35,793 nt of DNA from Paludibacteraceae bacterium (GTDB lineage: Bacteria; Bacteroidota; Bacteroidia; Bacteroidales; Paludibacteraceae). The position numbers and the translations under genes are program-made. Positions 1 to 30,562 of this stretch are shown here, piece after piece. The stretch's first letter is position 1. Each line of letters starts with the position of its first letter. A model generated the notes under the pieces. The model searched no databases. It was not told where the DNA came from and was given only the letters and a program-made list of their open reading frames with translations. The stretch is from NCBI GenBank assembly GCA_024401565.1, contig JAKSKU010000023.1, positions 1-35,793 of the forward strand, read 5' to 3'.

Positions 1-54
1 TAGAGCAAAGGACTGAAAATCCTTGTGTCCCCGGTTCGATTCCTGGTGGTACCA
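1..54 (+). tRNA. tRNA-Phe (GAA), 5' end cut by the window
   Basis: The 3' part of a tRNA is visible. The anticodon arm has stem AAGGA (8-12), loop CTGAAAA (13-19) and stem TCCTT (20-24). The anticodon GAA at 15-17 gives Phe. The T arm is 30-46 with loop TTCGATT; its middle pair is a C-T mismatch. The acceptor 3' strand TGGTACC (47-53) and discriminator A54 follow. The CCA end is not fully encoded. The D arm is only partly present and the 5' acceptor strand lies before the window. Confidence 0.93.
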
Positions 55-16030: not shown

Positions 16031-16117
16031 TTACTTGCCGTAATAGCCAAAGATTGTTAAGCCTTCCCCAACATCAGAAGAAAATCTGCATACGACATGA
16101 TTTTGACATATTACCAT
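16031..16117 (-). CDS. Possible 28-codon gene at the end of the vWA operon
   Basis: An ATG overlaps the stop of the vWA gene (TGGTAA holds both ATG and TAA). It opens a 28-codon frame, MVICQNHVVCRF followed by SSDVGEGLTIFGYYGK, that ends just before the terminator at 15977-16012. The overlap would allow translational coupling. The peptide is not recognised and could also be chance or the remnant of a longer gene. Confidence 0.25.
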   Translation of the reverse strand: MVICQNHVVCRFSSDVGEGLTIFGYYGK

Positions 16118-17298
16118 TGTTTTGGAGCAAGTCCATTAGTTAAATCATCTTTCTTCAAAGCACGTTCCAACAACTCCGGAAGTTTGTCTGGCGGACAAGC
16201 AAAACATGGAATTCCAAGAGACGCTATTCTTCTTGCATTATTCTCGTTGTAGAACGCGCGACCTCCGTCTGCAATAGCAAGCAGCACAATTACCGTCGCC
16301 CCACTATCTTTCAACTCCTGCAAACGATTGATAAAGTCTTTTCCTCCGTATTCATCCAAATCTGAGATTAGGAAAAACAATGTGTTTTGAGGGTCTGTCA
16401 TCAATGTCTGGCAGTACGCTATAGATTTGTCGATGTTTGTTCCGCCTCCCATCTGAAAACCATATAGCAAATCTACAGGATCTTCACACATCGACGTCAA
16501 ATCCATTATTTCAGTATCGAAAGCCACCACATTAGTCTGGACAGACGACATGGAGGCAAGAATACACGACATGATGGAAGAATAAATGATCGACTCTCCC
16601 ATTGATCCTGATTGGTCGATATCAAGGATAATGTTCCATTTATTGACGGAATTTTTCCTGTCGAAAAACCAAACCTTCTCCGGAATAATAGTTTTAAGAC
16701 CCTGATTGTAGTTTTTCAGATTGCGTCTGATCGTATATTTGAAGTCGATCGCGCTTGCAGACGGTATTGCTGAATGCTCACGTTTGTTGACAGCAGCCGT
16801 CACACTTGACCGTATGTCGTTTTCCAGCATTTTGTTGATCTGCTCCACCAATCGTTTGATGAACTCTCTAGCCGCAGACTTCGACTTTTGTGGGATCTGG
16901 TCCTTGAGCATCAACAGCGCAGACACCATTTGCACGTCTGGTTCCAGATCGTTTAGAATCTCAGACTCCATAAGAAGCTCCTTCAGATTCTTTCGTTCGA
17001 TCGCATCGTTCTGTATGATCTTTATGGTCTCCTTATCAAACAGTTTTCGGATGTCACCCAACCATTTTGAGATGACAGGTGAAGACTTAGCGTTGCCTGC
17101 TTTCTTGTTTGAGCCTCCATCAAAGCTGCCTTCTCCTGTGCCGTATATGGCTTGTAGCGCACTGTCGAGCATAATGTCAGCCGGGCTCATAACACTTTGT
17201 GTCCCTATGCCTCCTGCCATCTGGCCCAACATGTCGTCACTCTCTTTTCCTAGAATCAGTCTCCAACGCTTTAAATTCTGGGTTTCTTTATCTGTCAT
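16111..17298 (-). CDS. vWA-domain protein (CoxE-like) of a MoxR-DUF5682 module
   Basis: The 395-residue protein has a helical N-terminal half (1-210). A von Willebrand A domain (about 220-390) follows, with an intact MIDAS start D228-Q-S-G-S232 and a second metal-binding loop in MGGGTNID. CoxE/ViaA-type vWA proteins work with MoxR AAA+ ATPases as substrate- or metal-dependent adaptors (RavA-ViaA, CbbQ-CbbO, NorQ-NorD). Here the MoxR gene lies two genes upstream. No signal peptide is seen, so it should be cytoplasmic. It starts 14 bases after the DUF5682 gene. The target is unknown. Confidence 0.87.
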   Translation of the reverse strand: MTDKETQNLKRWRLILGKESDDMLGQMAGGIGTQSVMSPADIMLDSALQAIYGTGEGSFDGGSNKKAGNAKSSPVISKWLGDIRKLFDKETIKIIQNDAIERKNLKELLMESEILNDLEPDVQMVSALLMLKDQIPQKSKSAAREFIKRLVEQINKMLENDIRSSVTAAVNKREHSAIPSASAIDFKYTIRRNLKNYNQGLKTIIPEKVWFFDRKNSVNKWNIILDIDQSGSMGESIIYSSIMSCILASMSSVQTNVVAFDTEIMDLTSMCEDPVDLLYGFQMGGGTNIDKSIAYCQTLMTDPQNTLFFLISDLDEYGGKDFINRLQELKDSGATVIVLLAIADGGRAFYNENNARRIASLGIPCFACPPDKLPELLERALKKDDLTNGLAPKQW

Positions 17299-17312
17299 AA
17301 CTGTTCTTCAAT

Positions 17313-19610
17313 TTAAATGTCGTCAAAGTCAAACTCATCAAGTTCATCGCTCATTTTCTTGGTCTGCTCAGCTATCGCTGTCTGCTCCTCTTCTGTAAGT
17401 GTTCTGACGATGGCAGTGGCCGCCTGTTGCTTGTTAAGGCCCCAGATCTCACCTAGGTTTTCAGCAATTTCAGACTTCTCACCGGCAGTGAAATCACACA
17501 ACGCTCTACGCAAACATACGACAGCACGCATGAACTCCTCTTCGTCAAGATTCTCAACATAGTCCGACATGCATCGCCAAATGGCAAGACGCGTGATTAG
17601 CGAATATCTGTTTTTGCTGGCAAGACCTTCAAACCATGCTGAACCCAGATCAACTGGCATTCCAGGAGAAAGTCGTCTAGACAATTCTGTAAGCAGCAAC
17701 GTCTCATCAGCCTCTCCACGTTCCACAAGCAAAGCCATGGCATATCCCGAACATTTAGGATGCAAATCGTCTCTTGTGGATATTCTAGACATAAGTTTCA
17801 CAAATGTGTCTCCCTGCTCCGCCAAAGAATCGATAGAGAGCTGAACATTGCTCATGATGTTCATAGAATTCACCACCTGTCCTACACCATCGTCGCTGCA
17901 AACGCAAGCACCTTCCAAAGTCAGTATGTAGCGTAGATAGAGCTTCTCCAACAATGGAATAAGTATGGAGCTATCGTATTTTCTGACAGAACCGAACTTT
18001 ATAATTGTCGAAAGTATATCCGCAGTATTCGCGATGGAACTGATAGCAGCACCGTCTACAGCAATATTGCTCAACGCATTCAACGCATATACGCTGGTCT
18101 CAGGAATACCACACATGAAAGCCAAATGGAACACACGAGCAGCCTCATCGATGCTGACCGCGGCGTCCGCCATCTCTCTAAGTTTGTTAGACGTTGCAGA
18201 CAAGATAGAGTCGCCTAACAATGACGATTCTATTATCTCTATTTCAACATTTGTAGTCCACTGGAGAGACCAACGCTCCGACCAGCCCTTCATATGTGTA
18301 GAACCATTGAGAGCAGTCTGCAGCGGTTTGGCGAAATGGATTCCCAATACATACAGGCGGCACAGGAAGAAGGACCGTCTAAGGTCGATCAAGGCCTTTT
18401 CCTCATCCTTGACAGTGTTCTTTTCACGAAGGTCGAGAGCCAACTCCTCTGCCACCTCGTTTCTATATTTATCAAGACGCAGCAGTTCCAACTGATTATT
18501 GAAATCCTCCTGAACGGATGTTGTCCCCATGCCTTCAGGCACACTTCCGATGTGGTCACCCTTAACCTCTATTCTAAGGAACGACTCAACCAACTCAGAC
18601 TCATTGCCATGACCCATTGCGGAGATAGCAGCGTCGTGCATGTCTGTTAGCGACGGAATCCTGTTTGCACGGAAACTTGCCAGCGTCTTGGCCAACAAGT
18701 CAGCATCAATGACCTCTGCCGACGACACAATATGGCCAGACTTTCTTTGCTCATCAGCCACAGCCACCAAGTATCTCTCAGTGAAATTCTCATTCAGTGT
18801 GTTGTCGTTCAACGCTTGCCAAAGCATATCGTAGTAGCCGGGAGCCTTGTTGCCAGCGCCGTAACCCGACAGACGCGACAAGCGATAGTAAGTGTATGGC
18901 ATCAGTGTGGACGACGACTCCAGACGAGGCAGTTTGTTCACCTCATCGTCCGTCATCGGCTCATTAGTCTCCAATCCGCTCACATGGTACGCACCGCAGA
19001 CACAGAACACTTTTTTGTCTTCCGTCGTCTTGCAGAGAATCACACGTTTCATGTATGCTTCACGTATGAGATTTCTAGAAAATGAATAGGTGTCATTTTC
19101 CTCAAGAAGACGCAACTCTTTTCCCAATACTTTAATAGCCTCCTGATACTTTCCTGTCCCTGCTATTGTCTCAAAATTACGGTCCCAGTAATCTTCATAC
19201 TTCTCCCCCGACACCTTTTCCAACTCTTTATAGACATCAAATCGAGACTCTTGGCCATCTTGGTCATAAATTCGGTTGTTGTCAAAAGCCAAAAAGACAG
19301 ATGTCGGCAGATCCATGAAAGCGCACTCCTTATTGTTTTTGTGAGCCCACAGAATAGCCTGCACTTCAGGAGAATAGCTGGCAAACGGATACAATATAGA
19401 CTGTACAGGTTGCGTCTGGGTATAGGACATTAGTGCAATAGGGAAACGGATATCCTTATTGCACAGCCATTTCATCATATTTGTAAGATCTTCAGGCCCC
19501 TCCACAAGAACCACATCCGGGTTCACCTCATCCAGACGGCGCAACAATTCGAACGCACCTGTCGGAGAATGATGGGCAATACCGAAGATTTCCACGTTTG
19601 ACATATTCAT
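17313..19610 (-). CDS. DUF5682-family protein, TIKI/TraB-like putative metalloenzyme
   Basis: The 765-residue protein begins EIFGIAHHSPTGAFELL with His13 and His14, then VVLVEGP with Glu37, and has a second motif VCGAYHVSGL (His209). A GxxH near the start, a following Glu and a later G-A-x-H-x-x-G recall the TIKI/TraB and EreA/ChaN metal-dependent hydrolases; this is inference from motifs. Residues about 300-740 are helical and probably repeat-like. It starts 2 bases after the MoxR stop, a tight coupling. I recall DUF5682 genes occurring with MoxR, vWA and SWIM genes in many bacteria. Substrate and process are unknown. A second in-frame ATG at residue 3 is an alternative start. Confidence 0.8.
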   Translation of the reverse strand: MNMSNVEIFGIAHHSPTGAFELLRRLDEVNPDVVLVEGPEDLTNMMKWLCNKDIRFPIALMSYTQTQPVQSILYPFASYSPEVQAILWAHKNNKECAFMDLPTSVFLAFDNNRIYDQDGQESRFDVYKELEKVSGEKYEDYWDRNFETIAGTGKYQEAIKVLGKELRLLEENDTYSFSRNLIREAYMKRVILCKTTEDKKVFCVCGAYHVSGLETNEPMTDDEVNKLPRLESSSTLMPYTYYRLSRLSGYGAGNKAPGYYDMLWQALNDNTLNENFTERYLVAVADEQRKSGHIVSSAEVIDADLLAKTLASFRANRIPSLTDMHDAAISAMGHGNESELVESFLRIEVKGDHIGSVPEGMGTTSVQEDFNNQLELLRLDKYRNEVAEELALDLREKNTVKDEEKALIDLRRSFFLCRLYVLGIHFAKPLQTALNGSTHMKGWSERWSLQWTTNVEIEIIESSLLGDSILSATSNKLREMADAAVSIDEAARVFHLAFMCGIPETSVYALNALSNIAVDGAAISSIANTADILSTIIKFGSVRKYDSSILIPLLEKLYLRYILTLEGACVCSDDGVGQVVNSMNIMSNVQLSIDSLAEQGDTFVKLMSRISTRDDLHPKCSGYAMALLVERGEADETLLLTELSRRLSPGMPVDLGSAWFEGLASKNRYSLITRLAIWRCMSDYVENLDEEEFMRAVVCLRRALCDFTAGEKSEIAENLGEIWGLNKQQAATAIVRTLTEEEQTAIAEQTKKMSDELDEFDFDDI

Positions 19611-19612
19611 GA

Positions 19613-20701
19613 TTAATCATTCAACGCCTTGCATGCCTTGTAGAGCGGCATCCATTCAGAGCCACGCTTCTTCATGACATTTTCCAAGTACTCTGTCCAG
19701 CTAACAGCATCCTTCTCCTCATCTTTAACGATGGCACCCTGCAAAGAAGCAGCCAAGTCATCAGCTGATATCTCTCCGTTTCCAAAACTTCCGGCCAACG
19801 CCATTGAGTTGGACAACAACGAGATAGCCTCTGCAGTAGATAGGACACCAGATGTCTGCTTAATCTTCATTGTTCCGTCCTCTGTCACTCCGTTTCGGAT
19901 CTCACGGAAGATAGTAGCCACCTTTTCTATGATGTCCGCGTTAGGAATAGACGCATTGACTGTATTAAGAGCAGAAAGCTGAGTGACACGTTTCTTGATG
20001 ATCTCCATCTCTGTGCTCTTATCGTTAGGTGTAGGCAAAACGATGATGTTGAAACGACGTTTCAAAGCGGCAGACATTGCATTTACACCCTTGTCTCTGG
20101 TGTTGGCAGTAGCGATAATGTTGAATCCCCTTTGAGCAGGCACCTCAATATTGAGTTCAGGCACCGCGATTCTCTTCTCCGACAAAATAGAGATCAAGGC
20201 ATCCTGCACTTCGCTGGCGCATCTTGATATCTCCTCAAAACGAGCGATTGTGCCGCTCTCCATTGCTCTGTAGATAGGGCTCTTCACCATAGCGTCAGCA
20301 GACGGACCCTGCGCGATCAACATTGCGTAGTTCCAAGAATAACGTATCTGCTCCTCAGATGTGCCGGCAGTACCCTGCACCACCTTTGTTGAATCACCGT
20401 TGATAGCTGCGGAAAGGTGTTCTGAAAGCCACGATTTAGCAGTTCCCGGCTCACCAATAAGCAGCAAAGCTCTGTCTGTTAGCAAAGTGGCGATGGCAAC
20501 CTCCACAATACGTTTGTTGCCGATGTATTTTGGTGTTATCTCCGTCTTTCCTGATTTACCACCTATGATATAAGTCAACACTGATTTAGGAGACATCTTC
20601 CAACCAGCTGGAATAGGATCCTTCTCGTTCTTAATCAATGTGTCAATCTCTTCCTGGAAAAGCAACTCCGCTGATTTCCTAAGTATGTTTTCTGAACTCA
20701 T
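19613..20701 (-). CDS. MoxR-family AAA+ ATPase
   Basis: The 362-residue protein has Walker A GEPGTAKS (83-90), a Walker B-like ARFEEI (153-158; the usual Asp-Glu is Glu-Glu), sensor 1 in ATAN (197-200) and an arginine-finger region LKRRF (213-217). A helical lid (about 230-340) follows. MoxR ATPases form hexamers that remodel or activate proteins with a vWA partner. It is the motor of this operon: SWIM and helical protein upstream, DUF5682 and vWA downstream. The 109-base gap before it contains a hairpin. No membrane segment is present. Confidence 0.9.
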   Translation of the reverse strand: MSSENILRKSAELLFQEEIDTLIKNEKDPIPAGWKMSPKSVLTYIIGGKSGKTEITPKYIGNKRIVEVAIATLLTDRALLLIGEPGTAKSWLSEHLSAAINGDSTKVVQGTAGTSEEQIRYSWNYAMLIAQGPSADAMVKSPIYRAMESGTIARFEEISRCASEVQDALISILSEKRIAVPELNIEVPAQRGFNIIATANTRDKGVNAMSAALKRRFNIIVLPTPNDKSTEMEIIKKRVTQLSALNTVNASIPNADIIEKVATIFREIRNGVTEDGTMKIKQTSGVLSTAEAISLLSNSMALAGSFGNGEISADDLAASLQGAIVKDEEKDAVSWTEYLENVMKKRGSEWMPLYKACKALND

Positions 20702-20754
20702 AATTTATGTCTTATCCTTTATTTTAGAGCAGTTGCCCTAAATGAGGATTGTTA

Positions 20755-20783
20755 AAGGCCCATGTCTGATTTATTTGGGCCTT
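20755..20783 (-). other. Hairpin inside the SWIM-MoxR operon
   Basis: AAGGCCCA (20755-20762) pairs with TGGGCCTT (20776-20783) around a 13-base loop. It lies in the 109-base gap before the MoxR gene. On the transcript it is followed by TAACAATCC and not by a U-run, so it is more likely a processing or stability element, or a weak attenuator, than a terminator. Confidence 0.4.
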
Positions 20784-20810
20784 AACCCCTCCAACTTGTA
20801 TATAATTACC

Positions 20811-21692
20811 TTATTTTTTAGACTCACTATTCATAAACGTAATGATAGTGTCTGTCTCCCAGTTCTGACTCTCAAAGAAATTCAAAACTTCCTGTATTTC
20901 AGGACATCCGGGATGCTTTGAAATCAAAGCCTTTGCGATTCTGATGTTGTCTTTGATATCTTTCGACTTTTTAGCGGTGATAAACTTGACATACAACCAT
21001 GCAGGGACATCCTTTTTTTGAAAATATAGATATGTAGCGTCATTCGGCTTGAATTTAGTGATGTTTTCCGCATACCATTTGGCACCAGCATGATCCCCTA
21101 AAGCGTCTAGCAACTCCACAGAATAGATATTTGTCGACTCTTTGACAATATCTATATATTTACCAGTTTTATCATTTTGGATAGCATTAACAAGAATATC
21201 AAGGAAGCCTCCATTTGATCCGTGATATACCATGCTATGTCTGTAAAATTCCAATGTCTTTTTGAACATATTTGTGCTCAATAAAGCCATCGGATTTGCA
21301 ATCAAGAATGTTCGCAAAGGAGCATAATTCTCAGTTGTCACATCACACATGACAGACAAGATAGATTTAGGGATATTTACATGAGGACGTTCAGATGTCA
21401 CAACCTCTTCGTAGCCATCCAACTCTTTTGTGCCAATAGTACCCTGAGTCTTGATCACAGCATATACTGTTCCAAGAACAGTCAGGATCTGCTTGTTGCG
21501 CTTCTCTTTCTCTGTTGTGAAAATAGCGTTGGCGGCCGACTGTATCTTACCAAATACAGGGTTTACCGCAGCTAACGACGACATATCCTCAATAGCTTTC
21601 TTCAACTTGAAATCGTCGTCGATAAGATTGGTTCCAGCAATAACGATATGGTCCAATCTCTCTTTAAGATTATATAATGGTTCTAGATTCAT
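20811..21692 (-). CDS. Helical protein of unknown function in the MoxR module
   Basis: The 293-residue protein is predicted mostly alpha-helical, with no signal peptide or membrane span. Repeated helix pairs (LDALGDHAGAKWYAENI; PGCPEIQEVLNFF) suggest a TPR- or HEAT-like solenoid in the C-terminal half, as expected for an adaptor. No family was recognised with confidence. It lies 36 bases after the SWIM gene and 109 bases before MoxR on the same strand, so it is probably a component of the same module. Confidence 0.65.
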   Translation of the reverse strand: MNLEPLYNLKERLDHIVIAGTNLIDDDFKLKKAIEDMSSLAAVNPVFGKIQSAANAIFTTEKEKRNKQILTVLGTVYAVIKTQGTIGTKELDGYEEVVTSERPHVNIPKSILSVMCDVTTENYAPLRTFLIANPMALLSTNMFKKTLEFYRHSMVYHGSNGGFLDILVNAIQNDKTGKYIDIVKESTNIYSVELLDALGDHAGAKWYAENITKFKPNDATYLYFQKKDVPAWLYVKFITAKKSKDIKDNIRIAKALISKHPGCPEIQEVLNFFESQNWETDTIITFMNSESKK

Positions 21693-21728
21693 CTTTTATG
21701 ATTCTTATAATGGTATCAATAAACTTCC

Positions 21729-23168
21729 TTAGGCGATTCTTATTATTTTCTCCTCGTTGATGTAAGAGAATGGCAAAAGATAGATACTGCCGTCCTTATA
21801 AAACATCTCACCGAAGATAGCATCACCAGGTTTGATTTCAACAGGCAAATCCTTGATCTGCTCGGATGGCTTCATGTAGACGCTGCCCCTTAGGATGATA
21901 TTGTTGCCTGCTTTATCGACAATTACCATATGATTCTCATTCGCAAGGACTTTCTCGATAGTGAATAAGACTGGGTATTCGTTGTTTGCCATCGTATTCT
22001 TGATGACATTCTTCACTTTTTTCGCAGCGGTCGGGATATCCGGATCAGCGACACTCAAGATACGAGCGCAATCGTCAGCAGTGACTGGAGATGTACGCGG
22101 TTGCTCCCAACGGATTCTTCTGCAGCCGATACCTGGATATTTCACCATGACAGACGCGCTGGTCTTCTCGAAATTGGAATCCTCTTGCGGCAGATTGGAA
22201 GAGTAAGGACGGATATTGACAGAACAATATAGTTCACCAGTTTTAAGTTCAATATAATACGAGATGTCTCTTGACTCTTGTTTGACGTTATCCCATTCAG
22301 TATACATACCAAGCTGAATCAACTGGACATCCTTTTCAAAACTGTTGATGCCGATAAGAGAGTCGAACTTCCAGATACCACCCAATGCCTCGAAAAGATA
22401 TCCGTTGTCTTCCGAAATGTTATCCATCTCAATATTAGACTGCAGATAATCTCTACCCTTTTGAATGATAGTGTTGATACACAGTATCTTCTCTATTGTC
22501 TGTTGATATAACAAGTTTATAGTTTCCTCGTCGGAATGCTTCATTCTATCGATATAATTAGCAATCTGCATGAATGCAGCCTGAAGTCCAGGAATATAGT
22601 ATGTTCCTAAATCATTAGCGACATCGACGAATTTTTTAGCAGATTGTCCGGAAAGAGTGGCCACACCTGATGAAAGCAATTCATCGACGATCTTTTCAGC
22701 AACGTCTAATCCCTCCAATTGTTGAGCCATCTTCTTCTTGCTGGCAGCCGCGCTTGATTTTGATTTAGCCTTTGGAGCTCCAGCATTATCGATAGCCTCC
22801 TGTATTTTTGCCTCTTTCTTTGCTTCCGCAGCTTCTTTCTTAGCTTTCTTAGCCGCTAGATCCTCAGGTATCGCACTGTCAGAGAAAGCCTTTCCCGAAA
22901 TGATTTCATACATCAAGCCTATACCATGCTTACATGGGAACTGTCGGCTAGGGCAAGAACATCTGCACACAGGGTCCTGACTACCATCACCAAAGTCAAC
23001 TGATGTGTTATAAAAGCCGCTGCTTCCTGCGCATTCCGCCCAATACACTGTTGATTCCGCATCTTTGCACAAATTTTTAAAACTGCCTTTCTGACTTAGT
23101 TTCTTACCATTTGATACTGCACTCGCATTGGCAGCAATTCGCATAATCGTTGCTTCCGTCAAATCCAT
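21729..23168 (-). CDS. SWIM zinc-finger protein, first gene of the MoxR-vWA module
   Basis: The 479-residue protein has a SWIM motif C70-x-C72-x6-C79-x-H81 (CSCPSRQFPCKH). SWIM fingers bind zinc and mediate DNA or protein contacts. A Lys/Ala/Glu-rich helical linker (about 105-150) follows, then a domain of about 320 residues with mixed strands and helices that was not recognised. No nuclease or helicase motif is visible. As first gene it may supply target recognition. The upstream 300 bases hold no gene. Confidence 0.82.
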   Translation of the reverse strand: MDLTEATIMRIAANASAVSNGKKLSQKGSFKNLCKDAESTVYWAECAGSSGFYNTSVDFGDGSQDPVCRCSCPSRQFPCKHGIGLMYEIISGKAFSDSAIPEDLAAKKAKKEAAEAKKEAKIQEAIDNAGAPKAKSKSSAAASKKKMAQQLEGLDVAEKIVDELLSSGVATLSGQSAKKFVDVANDLGTYYIPGLQAAFMQIANYIDRMKHSDEETINLLYQQTIEKILCINTIIQKGRDYLQSNIEMDNISEDNGYLFEALGGIWKFDSLIGINSFEKDVQLIQLGMYTEWDNVKQESRDISYYIELKTGELYCSVNIRPYSSNLPQEDSNFEKTSASVMVKYPGIGCRRIRWEQPRTSPVTADDCARILSVADPDIPTAAKKVKNVIKNTMANNEYPVLFTIEKVLANENHMVIVDKAGNNIILRGSVYMKPSEQIKDLPVEIKPGDAIFGEMFYKDGSIYLLPFSYINEEKIIRIA

Positions 23169-23471: not shown

Positions 23472-23502
23472 TTGTGTAAAAGCGATTTAATATGTAATTT
23501 TG
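23472..23502 (+). promoter_or_regulatory. Promoter of the aromatic amino acid operon
   Basis: TTG (23472-23474), 20 bases and TAATTTTG (23495-23502) match the Bacteroidota promoter. Transcription would start near 23509, about 20 bases before the leader peptide ATG at 23528. Confidence 0.65.
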
Positions 23503-23516
23503 CAGTCACAAAATTA
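23495..23516. repeat. 8-6-8 inverted repeat made of two -7 elements
   Basis: TAATTTTG (23495-23502), six bases, then CAAAATTA (23509-23516) form a perfect dyad. The left arm is the -7 element of the aromatic operon; the right arm read on the minus strand is also TAATTTTG. It could be a face-to-face promoter pair or a repressor operator over the promoter. Confidence 0.5.
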
Positions 23517-23527
23517 TTGTAGACACA

Positions 23528-23584
23528 ATGCAACAACGATATTTCGCATATTATTACTTTTTTTACTTTTACTTTAGAAGGTAA
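23528..23584 (+). CDS. pheL: Phe/Tyr attenuation leader peptide
   Basis: The 18-codon frame encodes MQQRYFAYYYFFYFYFRR: 6 Tyr and 5 Phe, 10 of them within residues 6-16. It stops 2 bases before the antiterminator strand at 23587. No normal protein has this composition at this place. It is the sensing element of a ribosome-mediated attenuator. Scarce charged tRNA-Phe or tRNA-Tyr would stall the ribosome in the codon run and leave 23587-23594 free. The gene is shorter than usual ORF cut-offs. The symbol pheL is used by analogy; the peptide senses both amino acids. Confidence 0.88.
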   Translation: MQQRYFAYYYFFYFYFRR

Positions 23585-23586
23585 GA

Positions 23587-23661
23587 GCGGGATTTTGTTG
23601 TGTATAAAATAACTTATCAAAAAGATATAATCCCGCATTCATCTGAATGTGGGATTTTTTT
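23587..23661 (+). promoter_or_regulatory. Transcription attenuator (antiterminator and terminator)
   Basis: Strand 2, GCGGGATT (23587-23594), is perfectly complementary to AATCCCGC (23629-23636), which is also the 5' half of the terminator. The terminator pairs 23629-23640 with 23645-23656, 12 bp with one G-U and loop ATCT, and runs into seven T (23655-23661). A ribosome at the leader stop covers strand 2, so the terminator forms. A ribosome stalled at the Phe/Tyr codons leaves strand 2 free, so the antiterminator forms and the genes are read. Confidence 0.87.
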
Positions 23662-23670
23662 GTAATAGAG

Positions 23671-24510
23671 ATGAAACGAGTAGCAATCCAAGGAGTGAAA
23701 GGCTGTTTCCATGAGATAGCAGCACGTGAATTCTTCCAGGGAGAAGAGATTGACGCTGTAGAGTGCGAGACATTCGAGGAACTTTTCGAGACAGTCAAGA
23801 GAGAGGGCATCATCGCCACTCTTGCTATTGAGAACACGATAGCAGGAAGCCTTCTTCAGAATCATATTCTGCTTAAGGAGAGCGGATTGAAAATTGCTGG
23901 AGAACAGAAGATTCGTATCCGCCACAACCTTGTTGCCATGCCTGGCCAAGAGTTGGAATCAATCAAAGAGGTATATTCGCATCCTATCGCGTTGATGCAG
24001 ATCCGCAACTTCCTCGACGACCATAAGTTCCTTAAGGCTGTTGAGTGGGACGACACAGCATCGTCGGCAAAAATGATCGCTCGTGAGCAGTGTATGGGTA
24101 AGGCTGGAGTATGTAGCGAGTGGGCAGCCGAAATCTACGGTCTTGAGATCCTTGCCAAAGGCATTGAGACAAACAAGCGTAACTTCACTCGTTTCTTGGT
24201 GATCTCTGATCCATGGACTGTGGATGAGATCAAGAAAGACCAGACTCCTAACAAAGCGTCTCTTGTGTTCCGTCTACCTCATGAAGAGGGCAGTTTGGCA
24301 AAAATCCTTTCAATCATGTCGTATTATGGCATGAACCTTACTAAGATCCAGTCTATGCCAATCATCGGACGTGAATGGGAGTATGAGTTCTATGTCGACT
24401 TGCGCTTTGAAGACTATTTGAAATACAAGCAGAGTCTTGAGGCTTTCCAACCATTGACTAAAGATTTGGTCATCCTTGGAGAATACCGCGAAGGTAGACA
24501 AACTATTTAA
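23671..24510 (+). CDS. pheA: Prephenate dehydratase
   Basis: The 279-residue enzyme converts prephenate to phenylpyruvate. Residues 1-180 form the catalytic dehydratase domain with VAIQGVKGCFHEIAA at the start, ATLAIENTIAGS, and the family signature T173-R174-F175 (NFTRFLVI). Residues about 195-270 form an ACT domain (SLVFRLPHEEGSLAKILSIM), which usually binds Phe for feedback inhibition. No chorismate mutase is fused here; that domain sits in the third gene. ATG 23671 follows the attenuator by 9 bases. An upstream in-frame start at 23647 lies inside the terminator stem and is unlikely. Confidence 0.92.
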   Translation: MKRVAIQGVKGCFHEIAAREFFQGEEIDAVECETFEELFETVKREGIIATLAIENTIAGSLLQNHILLKESGLKIAGEQKIRIRHNLVAMPGQELESIKEVYSHPIALMQIRNFLDDHKFLKAVEWDDTASSAKMIAREQCMGKAGVCSEWAAEIYGLEILAKGIETNKRNFTRFLVISDPWTVDEIKKDQTPNKASLVFRLPHEEGSLAKILSIMSYYGMNLTKIQSMPIIGREWEYEFYVDLRFEDYLKYKQSLEAFQPLTKDLVILGEYREGRQTI

Positions 24511-24589: not shown

Positions 24590-25756
24590 ATGAATATCAC
24601 ACCGGCTGATAGAGTATTAGAGATTCAGGAATACTACTTCTCAAAGAAACTCAGAGAGGTGGCTGAATTGAACGCACAAGGAAAAGATATTATTAGTTTG
24701 GGTATCGGTAGCCCCGACAGAATGCCGTCGGAAGAGGCTCTTAACACCCTTAATGAGGTGGCTCACCAGCCAAACGCTCACGGATACCAGTCGTATCAGG
24801 GAATTCCTGAACTACGCAAAGCATTTTCAGATTTCTATAAGCGCTGGTATAATGTCGACCTTGATCCCAACAAGGAGATTCTGCCTTTGATCGGTTCGAA
24901 AGAGGGAGTCTTTTTCTTGTCGTTGACATTTATCAATCCAGGCGATGGTGTGCTTGTGCCAAACCCAGGTTATCCTACCTACACTTCTGCTTCCAAGATT
25001 ATCGGAGCAAGAATGATCAATTATGACTTGAGCGAGGAGAACGGTTGGCAGCCAGATTTCGAGAAACTTGAGAAGATGGATTTGACAGGCGTGAAGATGA
25101 TGTGGTGCAACTATCCTAACATGCCCACTGGCGGAAACGCACGCCGTGAGACATTTGAGAAGCTTGTCGACTTCGGTCTTCGCCACAATATCATCATCGT
25201 CAACGATAATCCATACAGCTTTATCTTGAATGATAATCCGATGAGTATTCTTTCTGTGCCACGCGCAAAAGAGTGCTGTTTCGAGTTGAATTCAACTAGT
25301 AAGGCTCTTAACATGCCTGGCTGGCGTATCGGTATGCTTGCAGGTAATCCAGAACTTATCTCATACGTGTTGAAGGCTAAAAGCAACGTCGACTCGGGAA
25401 TGTTCAAGCCAATGCAGATGGCTGCGGCTAAGGCTTTGGCTGCTGGCAAAGAGTGGTACGACAGCATCAACACCGTCTACAGAGCTAGAAGAAAATACGC
25501 TGAAGCTATTTTGGAATACCTAGGATGCACTTACGACAAGACACAGGTGGGTATGTTCATGTGGGGAAAGATTCCTGCTTCTTGCAAAAGCTGTGAGGAG
25601 TTGGCTGACAAGATTCTTTACGATTGCCGTGTGTTCGTGACTCCAGGATTCATCTTCGGCAGCAACGGCGACAGATACATTCGTCTTTCTCTATGTGCGA
25701 CAGAGGAGAAACTTGCTGAGGCACTTCAGAGAATCAAGGACAATTTGAAAATGTAA
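24590..25756 (+). CDS. PLP-dependent class I/II aminotransferase, probably aromatic
   Basis: The 388-residue protein is a fold-type I aminotransferase. It has SLGIGSPDRMPS at the start, NPGYPTY, WCNYPNMPTGG (cofactor and substrate contacts), VNDNPYSF, and the cofactor lysine K238 in STSKALNMPGWRIG. The C-terminal RLSLCATEEKL supplies the carboxylate-binding Arg. The sequence resembles the LL-diaminopimelate / aromatic aminotransferase group. Its place between prephenate dehydratase and DAHP synthase indicates the last step, transamination of phenylpyruvate and 4-hydroxyphenylpyruvate to Phe and Tyr. Substrate specificity is inferred from context. Confidence 0.87.
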   Translation: MNITPADRVLEIQEYYFSKKLREVAELNAQGKDIISLGIGSPDRMPSEEALNTLNEVAHQPNAHGYQSYQGIPELRKAFSDFYKRWYNVDLDPNKEILPLIGSKEGVFFLSLTFINPGDGVLVPNPGYPTYTSASKIIGARMINYDLSEENGWQPDFEKLEKMDLTGVKMMWCNYPNMPTGGNARRETFEKLVDFGLRHNIIIVNDNPYSFILNDNPMSILSVPRAKECCFELNSTSKALNMPGWRIGMLAGNPELISYVLKAKSNVDSGMFKPMQMAAAKALAAGKEWYDSINTVYRARRKYAEAILEYLGCTYDKTQVGMFMWGKIPASCKSCEELADKILYDCRVFVTPGFIFGSNGDRYIRLSLCATEEKLAEALQRIKDNLKM

Positions 25757-25773: not shown

Positions 25774-26835
25774 ATGGAACTTAAAAAAATAAATCTTGCA
25801 GGTGCATGTGACAGCCGTCCGATGGTGATCGCAGGTCCATGTAGTGCAGAGACAGAGGAACAGACTCTTAATACAGCCCGTCAGCTACACGCTCAGGGCA
25901 TCAAGATATTCCGCGCTGGAATCTGGAAACCACGTACAAAACCAGGTGGCTTCGAAGGAAACGGAGAACCAGCATTGGAGTGGATGAAAGAGGTTAAGAA
26001 GGAGACAGGAATGTACGTCTCTACAGAGGTTGCTACAGCAAAACATGTGGAGTTGGCATTGAAGTATGGTGTTGACCTTCTTTGGGTAGGTGCACGTACG
26101 ACAGCCGATCCATTCGCAGTGCAGGAGATCGCCGACACATTGAAGGGAGTTGATATCCCAGTGTTGGTGAAGAATCCAGTCAACCCGGATTTGGAGTTGT
26201 GGATCGGAGCATTGGAGAGATTGAACAACGCTGGCATCACTCAGCTTGGCGCAATCCACCGTGGATTCAGCTCATACGACAAGAAACTTTACCGTAACCT
26301 TCCACAGTGGCATATTCCAATCGAGTTGCACCGTCGTCTTCCTGAATTGCCAATCATCTGTGATCCAAGCCATATCTCAGGCCGACGCGACCTTATCGCT
26401 CCACTTTGCCAGCAGGCTATGGACCTTCAGTTCGACGGACTAATCGTAGAGAGTCACTGTGATCCAGACAAGGCATGGTCCGACGCTTCACAGCAGGTCA
26501 CTCCAGATGTTCTTTCATTGATTCTTGACAGCCTTGTAGTCCGCACTACAAACGCCTCTACAGAGAATATCAACGCACTTCGTAAGCAGATCGATGAGAT
26601 CGATATGTCTATCCTTGAGATCTTGGCTAAAAGAATGCGTATCTCACGTGAGATCGGCCAGTACAAGAAGGAGCATGACATGCCAATTCTTCAGAGCCAG
26701 CGTTACGATGAGATTATATCAAAGAGAGTTGCCGACGGTAAGTCAATGTCGATGGGTGAAGAATTCTTGAACACTGTGTTCGAGGCAATCCACGAAGAGT
26801 CTGTACGTCAGCAGGCAGAGATTATGAATAAGTAA
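25774..26835 (+). CDS. Bifunctional DAHP synthase / chorismate mutase
   Basis: The 353-residue fusion has an N-terminal class I-beta DAHP synthase (about 1-255; VIAGPCSAE, KPRTKPGGFEGNG, VGARTTADPF, AIHRGFSS, ICDPSHISGRRD). It makes DAHP from phosphoenolpyruvate and erythrose 4-phosphate. An AroQ-type chorismate mutase follows (about 268-350; LRKQIDEIDMSILEILAKR, typical helix 1, and the conserved Arg/Lys set). In related fusions the mutase also acts as an allosteric sensor of prephenate or chorismate. The protein thus covers both the entry step of the shikimate pathway and the branch-point step. It starts 17 bases after the aminotransferase. Confidence 0.93.
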   Translation: MELKKINLAGACDSRPMVIAGPCSAETEEQTLNTARQLHAQGIKIFRAGIWKPRTKPGGFEGNGEPALEWMKEVKKETGMYVSTEVATAKHVELALKYGVDLLWVGARTTADPFAVQEIADTLKGVDIPVLVKNPVNPDLELWIGALERLNNAGITQLGAIHRGFSSYDKKLYRNLPQWHIPIELHRRLPELPIICDPSHISGRRDLIAPLCQQAMDLQFDGLIVESHCDPDKAWSDASQQVTPDVLSLILDSLVVRTTNASTENINALRKQIDEIDMSILEILAKRMRISREIGQYKKEHDMPILQSQRYDEIISKRVADGKSMSMGEEFLNTVFEAIHEESVRQQAEIMNK

Positions 26836-26924: not shown

Positions 26925-27698
26925 ATGCGTATTTTAATTCTAGGTGCAGGCAAGATGGGTACATTCCTAACAGATGTACTTTGCATGAAGCACGACGTCG
27001 CGCTATACGATAAAGATCCAAAAAGATTGCGTTTTGTGTTCAACACACAGCGTATGACTTCGCTTGAGGAGGTGAGAGACTTCAAACCAGAACTTCTTAT
27101 CAACGCAGTGACAGTGAAGTATACACTCCAGGCGTTTGAGGAGGTTATGCCTTATTTGCCAAAAGACTGTATCATTTCCGATATCTCGTCAGTGAAGACG
27201 ACGTTGCCTAAGTTCTATGCTAACTGTGGATTCCGTTTCGTCTCAACACACCCGATGTTTGGACCAACGTTCGCAAGTCTTTCTGATCTACGCACACAGA
27301 ACGCCATCATCATTGCAGAGGGTGACTGTTTGGGCAAAGCGTTCTTCAGAGAGTTGTACGCGTCATTGCACTTGAACATCTTCGAATATACATTTGAGGA
27401 GCACGACGAGACAATGGCATACTGCTTGTCGATTCCATTTGCGTCGACGCTAGCATTCGCATCTGTGATGAAGCATCAGGACGCCCCTGGCACTACATTC
27501 AAGCGCCACATGGCAATTGCTGAGGGAGTGTTGTCGGAGGACAATTTCTTGATTTCAGAAATCTTGTTTAATCCTAATTCCTCAAAACAACTCGCTCTAA
27601 TCCAGGAGCAACTTGCTGAGCTACAGAAGATTGTTGAGAGCAAAGACTACGACAGAATGTTGAAGTATTTGAACCAGGCTCGCGAGAATATCAAATAA
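26925..27698 (+). CDS. tyrA: Prephenate dehydrogenase
   Basis: The 257-residue enzyme oxidises prephenate to 4-hydroxyphenylpyruvate with NAD(P). It opens with a Rossmann nucleotide loop G7-A-G-K-M-G12, then has ISDISSVKTT (about 88-97) and the substrate-site signature STHPMFGPTF. It is shorter than classical TyrA and has no ACT or chorismate mutase domain, which is normal in Bacteroidota. It is the last gene of the operon, followed by a strong terminator. Together with the dehydratase it opens both branches, so one attenuator controls Phe and Tyr formation. Confidence 0.9.
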   Translation: MRILILGAGKMGTFLTDVLCMKHDVALYDKDPKRLRFVFNTQRMTSLEEVRDFKPELLINAVTVKYTLQAFEEVMPYLPKDCIISDISSVKTTLPKFYANCGFRFVSTHPMFGPTFASLSDLRTQNAIIIAEGDCLGKAFFRELYASLHLNIFEYTFEEHDETMAYCLSIPFASTLAFASVMKHQDAPGTTFKRHMAIAEGVLSEDNFLISEILFNPNSSKQLALIQEQLAELQKIVESKDYDRMLKYLNQARENIK

Positions 27699-27720: not shown

Positions 27721-27758
27721 AAAAATCCCGTCTTTTATTGGAAAAGACGGGATTTTTT
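27721..27758 (+). terminator. Terminator of the aromatic amino acid operon
   Basis: AAAAATCCCGTCTTTT (27721-27736) pairs perfectly over 16 bp with AAAAGACGGGATTTTT (27742-27757) around ATTGG, ending in a T-run. Confidence 0.9.
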
Positions 27759-29455: not shown

Positions 29456-30562
29456 ATGAAAGCAAGGGTAATTATCGGTGCCAATTATGGCGATGAAGGC
29501 AAAGGCACAGTTACGGCGACATACACCAAATACGCCACAGGAAAGGTGTTGAACGTGCTGACTAACGGTGGTGCTCAAAGAGGTCACTCTATCCTGACTG
29601 AAGACGGTAGCTTCACATTCCAGCACTTCGGTTCTGGCACCTGTTTTGGCGCTGATAATTACTACCCTGCCTTCTATATATTGAATCCAATGCAGTTTGT
29701 GGATGAGTATGACGATCTGTTTGAAAGAGGCGTCATACAGAAGGTAAAACTCTTCAGAGACAAACAATGCCGTTGGAGCACACCATACGACATGATGGCC
29801 AACCAAATTCTTGAACACAAACGAGACAAAAACAAACACGGAAGCTGCGGAATGGGTATATGGGAGACGATACTTCGATATCAATGCACTGTGACGATGG
29901 ATATCGACCAGTTTTGCGCACTAGACACCGTCGACCAAAAGAATTATCTGAAAACCATCCGCGACTATTTCGAAAAAAGAATAGGCACCATTCCGGCCGA
30001 ATATAAGATGGCGTGGTATGACGAGCACACAATGGACCATTTCATTCGTGATTGCGGCTTTTTAAGAGCAAAAACAAACACTTTATTTGACGTTGCCAAC
30101 TATGATGAGATAATTTTTGAAAATGGACAGGGGCTATTGCTAAACGACACAGGATTTGACGTTGCTGGCACCACTCCGTCAAAGACAGGTGTGGACTATG
30201 CGCTGCAGCTGATGAAAACGTTTGGATGCGACGATGTTGAGCTCCACTACGTCACCCGACCATACATGACCAAACATGGCAGAGGCGGATTTGAGCTTGA
30301 AGCAGAGAGACGCGTGGTTTCTACCTACGTCAACGAAGACAGGACAAACCACTACAACCGTTTTCAGGAGAATTTCAGATACGGTATGCTAGACATAGAA
30401 GATCTGCATGACAGAATACAGGATGATGCCAAAAAACTGGATAATCAGCTACGGTATACTTACAAACTTGAGGTGACGCATTGCGATGAGATGGACAGAC
30501 TTGCAGAATTTGGCAAACATTTCCAAAACATCAACAGCTACGATTGCGCATTGATAAAGTAG
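29456..30562 (+). CDS. Adenylosuccinate synthetase-like protein (divergent PurA paralogue)
   Basis: The 368-residue protein keeps the PurA start IGANYGDEGKG with catalytic Asp13, and GGAQRGHS with His44 for the catalytic His41 of E. coli PurA. In the same motif the IMP-binding GGNNAGHT is changed. VTRPYMTKHGRGGFE matches the AYTTRVGxGPF block, and HGSCGMGIWE takes the place of TGRGIGPAYED. It is about 60 residues shorter than normal PurA (about 420-430). It probably joins Asp or another amine to a purine-type substrate with GTP, but the substrate cannot be set. Housekeeping purA is expected elsewhere. It is the last gene of the vWA cassette, 4 bases after the vWA stop. Confidence 0.82.
   Translation: MKARVIIGANYGDEGKGTVTATYTKYATGKVLNVLTNGGAQRGHSILTEDGSFTFQHFGSGTCFGADNYYPAFYILNPMQFVDEYDDLFERGVIQKVKLFRDKQCRWSTPYDMMANQILEHKRDKNKHGSCGMGIWETILRYQCTVTMDIDQFCALDTVDQKNYLKTIRDYFEKRIGTIPAEYKMAWYDEHTMDHFIRDCGFLRAKTNTLFDVANYDEIIFENGQGLLLNDTGFDVAGTTPSKTGVDYALQLMKTFGCDDVELHYVTRPYMTKHGRGGFELEAERRVVSTYVNEDRTNHYNRFQENFRYGMLDIEDLHDRIQDDAKKLDNQLRYTYKLEVTHCDEMDRLAEFGKHFQNINSYDCALIK

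Follow-up and report, generated by a model that had tools for sequence, protein, structure and literature searches.

A predicted ribosome-mediated Phe/Tyr attenuator upstream of pheA in the class Bacteroidia

In enterobacteria, pheA is preceded by the leader peptide gene pheL, followed by competing hairpins and an intrinsic terminator, and the pheL peptide is rich in Phe without a run of Tyr. Scored against the corresponding Rfam model (RF01859, Phe_leader), the pheA upstream region of a Paludibacteraceae bacterium described here reaches 19.0 bits, compared with a gathering score of 55, and so does not fall within that family. The region lies at nt 23528–23661 of the window, by which is meant the whole 35,793 nt stretch of DNA analysed (contig JAKSKU010000023.1). 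The Bacteroid-trp RNA is a Trp attenuator, and its model (RF01692) was absent among the 38 weak Rfam matches over nt 23480–23690. It is given as a Bacteroidetes RNA motif among 104 candidates in PMC2864571. Leader-peptide attenuation in this class is stated in general terms in a Flavobacterium psychrophilum paper (PMC9723704), in a passage that names no operon and offers no class-wide analysis; phenylalanine is not mentioned in the main text of that paper, and its supplements may list a pheA case. A map of B. thetaiotaomicron (PMC7366714) notes short ORFs that resemble leader peptide genes. In Salmonella, a single leader of mgtCBR, a virulence and Mg2+ transporter operon, contains two short ORFs together with attenuator structures (PMC3641672); in the tandem cases reported below, by contrast, Phe and Tyr codons are present in both attenuators, the operon behind them is biosynthetic, and the arrangement is found repeatedly, in several families. 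In the literature searched there was no earlier description of a Phe/Tyr attenuator before Bacteroidia pheA, which Lopatovskaya et al. 2010 (Mol Biol 44:128) or supplementary files may predict. The class of mechanism is old; what appears to be new is the predicted joint sensing of Phe and Tyr in most of the class loci examined, its probable re-specialisation where operons have split, and its occasional doubling.

The leader of the window and its operon

The features of the locus are as follows; the gene assignments are based on Pfam.

23472..23502, + strand: probable promoter, TTG (23472) and TAATTTTG (23495–23502)
23528..23584, + strand: leader peptide ORF MQQRYFAYYYFFYFYFRR, ATG at 23528, stop codon TAA at 23582–23584
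23528..23547, + strand: strand 1 (protector), leader codons 1–7, pairs with strand 2
23587..23606, + strand: strand 2, of which 23587–23594 (GCGGGATT) pairs with strand 3 and a longer stretch with strand 1
23629..23636, + strand: strand 3 (AATCCCGC), antiterminator partner, also part of the terminator 5' arm
23629..23661, + strand: intrinsic terminator, 12-bp hairpin 23629–23656 and T7 at 23655–23661
23671..24510, + strand: pheA, prephenate dehydratase (PF00800)
24590..25756, + strand: class I/II aminotransferase (PF00155)
25774..26835, + strand: DAHP synthase–chorismate mutase fusion (PF00793 and PF01817)
26925..27698, + strand: tyrA, prephenate dehydrogenase (PF02153)
27721..27757, + strand: terminator-like hairpin of 16 pairs, 3' of tyrA

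The leader has 18 codons, six for Tyr and five for Phe, and stands before a four-gene operon for both amino acids, a combination that sets it apart from pheL. The antiterminator segment of strand 2 begins two bases 3' of the leader stop. The terminator hairpin has a folding energy of -16.8 kcal/mol; the helix between strands 1 and 2, which in the minimum-energy fold joins 23528–23547 with about 23587–23605, has -19.6 kcal/mol. Folding z-scores are -5.93 for the terminator, -4.04 for the antiterminator region and -6.25 for the whole leader. An earlier note on this DNA had given the 18-codon leader, strand 2 two bases past its stop, strand 3, the 12-bp terminator and the seven T, all of which proved correct to the base. 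Its further statement, that all parts of an attenuator are present in the right order with no spare parts, holds for parts and order but overlooked strand 1. Judged from this arrangement and its relatives, the element is very probably a classical ribosome-mediated transcription attenuator that would sense the charging of both Phe- and Tyr-tRNA.

The sequence TAATTTTG fits the -7 box consensus of Bacteroidia, TAnnTTTG, and with a promoter there the leader would lie close to the transcript's 5' end. Of 93 unique leaders, 69 have this box 8–75 nt 5' of their start, compared with 5.3% of mononucleotide shuffles, at a median of 23 nt from the leader ATG. From this box we infer a transcript start shortly 5' of the ATG.

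Membership of a known Rfam family was considered and rejected. Across the whole window the only match at gathering score is a tRNA (RF00005) at 1–54 (+), truncated by the start of the window, none in Rfam 15 covers 23528–23661, and none was found in the loci of 10 relatives. Over 23480–23690, BTnc005 matches weakly (28.6 vs 174.8 bits, E 5.4e-05); a literature search under that name found nothing. The element is thus unrecognised by Rfam 15, and its leader gene is so short that annotation can miss it.

Given its operon context the aminotransferase is presumably aromatic. The hairpin at 27721–27757 is the probable operon end; the terminator scan behind it found 4 such sites, with 3.8 expected in shuffles. 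The gene 5' of the leader is divergent, on the opposite strand. The divergent cluster (16111–23168, -) encodes a VWA_CoxE protein (PF05762), a DUF5682 protein (PF18934), a MoxR-like AAA_5 ATPase (PF07728), a 293-aa protein and a SWIM zinc-finger protein (PF04434), and resembles MoxR-vWA ternary systems. Downstream of the operon, a 368-aa protein (29456–30562, +) partly matches adenylosuccinate synthetase (PF00709, 81 bits); the two genes beside it, of 198 and 312 aa, match nothing in Pfam. The genome that contains the window is 78% complete. By PheA, the titled genomes closest to it are that of Candidatus Scybalocola fimicaballi (97%) and those of further Paludibacteraceae or of unplaced Bacteroidales.

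Occurrence in the class Bacteroidia

Regions upstream of pheA were searched with a fixed criterion, in which the ORF part was an ATG start, at most 45 codons and at least six F/Y in ten, and the RNA part a terminator of -9 kcal/mol or lower with a T-run, together with a 2:3 helix of at least 5 bp. The full element was found 5' of pheA in 98 of 109 class Bacteroidia loci (79 of 87 Bacteroidales, 19 of 22 from other orders), and the same code found it in 72 of 80 further Bacteroidales loci; many of these loci come from close relatives, and the counts are taken as they stand, uncorrected for kinship. The 87 Bacteroidales loci are the 100 of the order less 12 duplicates and one without upstream sequence, the 22 loci of other orders were read from 24 matching genomes (G226 and G230 left out), and the further 80 are new genomes among 136 matching. 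The full element was absent from all controls (1090 dinucleotide shuffles, 109 reverse strands and 318 upstream regions of other genes), while the F/Y ORF alone was found in 104 of the 109 pheA upstream regions as against 16/1090 shuffles, 1/109 reverse strands and 1/318 other upstream regions. In the rest of the phylum, 28 loci were read among the matches outside this class, and none contained an F/Y leader ORF. Two isolates, L042 (Bacteroides sp. ET71) and L054 (Mediterranea sp. An20), are among the carriers of the element. The element is a probable means of controlling Phe and Tyr synthesis in this large class, whose members live in the gut and in the environment. One window alone could have revealed neither the spread through the class nor the tandem copies described below.

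Chance or plain T-richness was rejected as an explanation, in view of the absence of any full element from the shuffles, reverse strands and other upstream regions, and of a codon pattern specific to frame 0. A search of 21 genomes for seven consecutive TTY/TAY codons returned, in the genome of the window, the pheA leader (three overlapping matches) and an AT-rich site (C35:4007) only; since the backward pattern matches about as often, this pattern alone is not specific.

The 11 misses among the 109 loci are L010, L053, L056, L058, L059, L076, L087, L098, L112, L143 and L148. By eye, the leader of L010 starts with GTG and its T-run is broken, the T-runs of L058, L059 and L087 are broken or short, L076 is a weaker match and the run of L098 is short. 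The same inspection showed that in L112, L143 and L148 different sequence, which looks like a gene, reaches up to pheA. Of the eight misses in the second set (L294, L296, L300, L304, L325, L328, L340 and L343), three (L328, L340 and L343) have the parts of the element with a GTG-start leader, again by eye. In L053 and L056, which are Bacteroides-lineage contigs, the leader peptide is present letter for letter and the 5' arm of the terminator is truncated or lost; this damage may be a true loss of control or an assembly error.

Sensing codons and operon composition

Across the 93 unique leaders, 821 of 952 core codons are TTY or TAY, the other two frames reading mostly L, F, T, I and S. Phe codons outnumber Tyr codons in the cores (472 vs 349) and occur in every leader; the cores of four lack Tyr. 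The Phe/Tyr codons are kept while their order drifts, even within a genus (compare MQQRYFAYYYFFYFYFRR and MQQRFFAYYYFLFFYFRR), and across the class the residues on either side are for the most part variable. The earlier note had looked to relatives for conserved codons, and had named a conserved stem with codons that are not conserved as the pattern that would refute it; codons were kept in the relatives, which do not display that pattern.

An arrest peptide, in which the F/Y-rich nascent chain would halt the ribosome on a signal from free aromatic amino acids or some other small molecule and not for lack of charged tRNA, would account for the strong hydrophobicity and like composition of the leader peptides, many of which have similar ends (RR, KR, SR) or contain SHKVERE. 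Arrest peptides usually need exact residues, however, and the drift in F/Y order and the variable flanks argue against such a need here; the loss of Tyr in most operons of pheA alone, described next, also fits codon sensing. We regard an arrest peptide as very unlikely and favour the sensing of codons by the translating ribosome.

Operon splits provide a natural experiment on leader sensing. In three genomes (G090, G100 and G110) pheA lies away from the three genes that otherwise follow it and has a leader with a Phe-only core, and tyrA lies elsewhere behind a Tyr/Phe leader of its own with hairpins (MNNTFGYYAFYYYFFYNN, MIKNISVFAYFYYYFYFSKK and MAPVHTYYAWSFFFFYFQNKRGHAV); in G090 and G100 the separate tyrA sits with the DAHP synthase–chorismate mutase gene. 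The 151 loci of the order with the element comprise 138 with DAHP synthase downstream, seven with pheA alone (at least 3 kb seen) and six that could not be classed. Cores without Tyr were found in 6 of the 7 pheA-alone loci and 1 of the 138 with DAHP synthase downstream (Fisher p 4e-9, uncorrected for relatedness). On the PheA tree there are three independent contrasts, all in the expected direction and too few for significance, a sign test needing at least six; further cases without Tyr in the new set (L289, L330 and L334) come from two of the same genera. Codon identity thus tends to follow the regulated pathway, on few independent contrasts. The joint sensing of Phe and Tyr that the earlier note had matched to the four downstream genes is borne out to this extent, Tyr being lost in most pheA-alone leaders, in few independent cases.

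The predominance of Phe in the cores, and its presence in all unique leaders, might also be read as sensing of Phe only, with the Tyr codons as filler that keeps the RNA T-rich and unpaired. Against this, 137 of 138 cores contain Tyr where DAHP synthase follows and just 1 of 7 where pheA is alone, a comparison in which independent contrasts are few, and the separate tyrA operons of the three split genomes have Tyr/Phe leaders. Sensing of Phe alone is accordingly considered most improbable, and joint sensing is retained as the preferred reading.

The tendency has exceptions. The leader of L026 (G065) has no Tyr codon, yet its operon runs pheA–aminotransferase–DAHP synthase. There is no tyrA match in this 95% complete assembly and the contig ends 20 nt past the DAHP synthase stop, and tyrA may lie in the contig gap, its usual place. 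Two further exceptions, L317 and L325, have pheA alone with one Tyr codon each in the F/Y run (L325 by eye and below the criterion), and G118 has no tyrA match, yet two Tyr codons (by eye). In nine genomes with tyrA apart and DAHP synthase beside pheA, the Tyr codons stay in the pheA leaders, and no F/Y leader was found within about 1.4 kb 5' of the separate tyrA. The strict element is absent from four of 11 pheA-alone loci (L294, L296, L300 and L325), and the lone pheA of L294, L296 and L300 has no leader at all 5' of it. Two of these leaderless loci, L296 and L300, are from the genus of G100, in which L070 and L289 have a Phe-only leader; a loss of the attenuator in L296 and L300 is possible.

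A different operon is seen in L100 (G047), where an apparent chorismate mutase–prephenate dehydratase fusion (by eye), 29–30% identical to the PheA of the window, stands behind a mixed Y/F/W leader (MNLSFAKYYYYWFRFNSQIGQW), with apparent shikimate-pathway genes, a DAHP synthase among them, on its 3' side.

Helices, ribosome spacing and attenuators in series

Covariation was counted in 35 aligned leaders, chosen before counting from 41 candidate rows (left out were two second tandem copies, L088, L090, L092 and L096). Helix 2:3 is 90.9% paired with 21 double-change cells, and helix 3:4 is 97.6% paired with 33; with the register slid, pairing falls to 31–50%. The number of further pair types in 2:3 was not above its shuffles (305 of 500). 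The compensatory stem changes among relatives that the earlier note had proposed looking for are therefore present in both helices. In 89 of the 93 unique leaders the 2:3 pairing of a leader's own strands beats the mean of swapped partners. For helix 1:2 this is so in 64 of 93, strongly in the genus of the window and weakly in others, and for 29 of 93 the majority of swapped partners pair equally well; the protector helix is lineage-dependent across the class.

Strand 2 starts at a median of 11 nt from the last F/Y codon, with a standard deviation of 2.2 (median 11.5 in the 80-locus set), compared with a standard deviation of 11.8 for the distance from the stop codon to strand 2. It seems, then, that the constant quantity is the spacing between the last F/Y codon and strand 2 and not the position of the stop. 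According to PMC4833913, the ribosome footprint covers about 12 nt 3' of the codon being translated, so that a ribosome halted at the last sensing codon would reach about to the start of strand 2. The steady 11-nt spacing provides a figure for the required position of the stalled ribosome. In Bacteroides-type leaders the ORF ends 27 nt beyond the start of strand 2, and masking at the stop codon can therefore not be the whole story. Masking of strand 2 by a ribosome at the stop codon was rejected as a general rule, as many leaders end 10–33 nt past the strand 2 start.

A plain constitutive terminator or pause, beside which the short ORF would be incidental or would only aid translation of pheA, might explain why the ORF is kept in L053 and L056 although these loci lack a good terminator. 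It is hardly credible: the full combination occurs in 0/1090 shuffles and 0/318 other upstream regions, the competing 2:3 helix covaries, and a plain terminator gives no reason for the steady spacing of the F/Y run.

From the anatomy, conservation, covariation, spacing and codon–gene tendency observed, attenuation would involve stalling, read-through and a response to tRNA charging in the following way. RNA polymerase would start shortly 5' of the leader ATG, and a ribosome would translate the leader behind it; Bacteroidia genes generally lack Shine-Dalgarno sequences. With Phe- or Tyr-tRNA uncharged, the ribosome would stall on the F/Y codons with its front edge just short of strand 2, the 2:3 antiterminator would form in place of the terminator, and pheA and the genes for the aminotransferase, DAHP synthase/chorismate mutase and tyrA would be transcribed. 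With both tRNAs charged, the ribosome would run on and either cover strand 2 or be released, allowing 1:2 to pair again, and 3:4 would end transcription. If the leader were not translated at all, 1:2 and 3:4 would form and termination would be expected too. Attenuation of this type requires the coupling of transcription and translation, which becomes testable in Bacteroidia.

Two complete attenuators in a row were found in 20 of the 151 loci of the order with the element and in 2 of 19 from other orders, i.e. about one locus in eight. On the FastTree PheA tree the tandem label changes at least 11 times, gain and loss not being separable there. In the first eight found of these 22 tandem loci, to which the promoter count is confined, the TAnnTTTG box stands before the first leader in six and before the second in none, so the second attenuator is probably reached by transcripts that read through the first. 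Polymerase would then need to pass two checks in series, and if this is true repression should be sharper and deeper. Tandem attenuators before one biosynthetic operon are a simple circuit and directly testable.

Taken together, we lean towards the view that the Phe/Tyr attenuator is ancestral to the class Bacteroidia and serves as its default control of aromatic amino acid synthesis. The codon list would be an evolvable sensor, altered as operons split, to Phe-only before pheA and to Tyr/Phe before the tyrA–DAHP synthase branch, and perhaps also when tyrA is lost; the attenuator would have been doubled repeatedly in series on one promoter, its timing governed by how far strand 2 lies from the last sensing codon and not by the stop codon.

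Among the tandem loci, the second leaders of L018, L274, L280, L282 and L283 have a common YFM motif that ends the F/Y run, which suggests one old tandem lineage besides others that are apparently independent.
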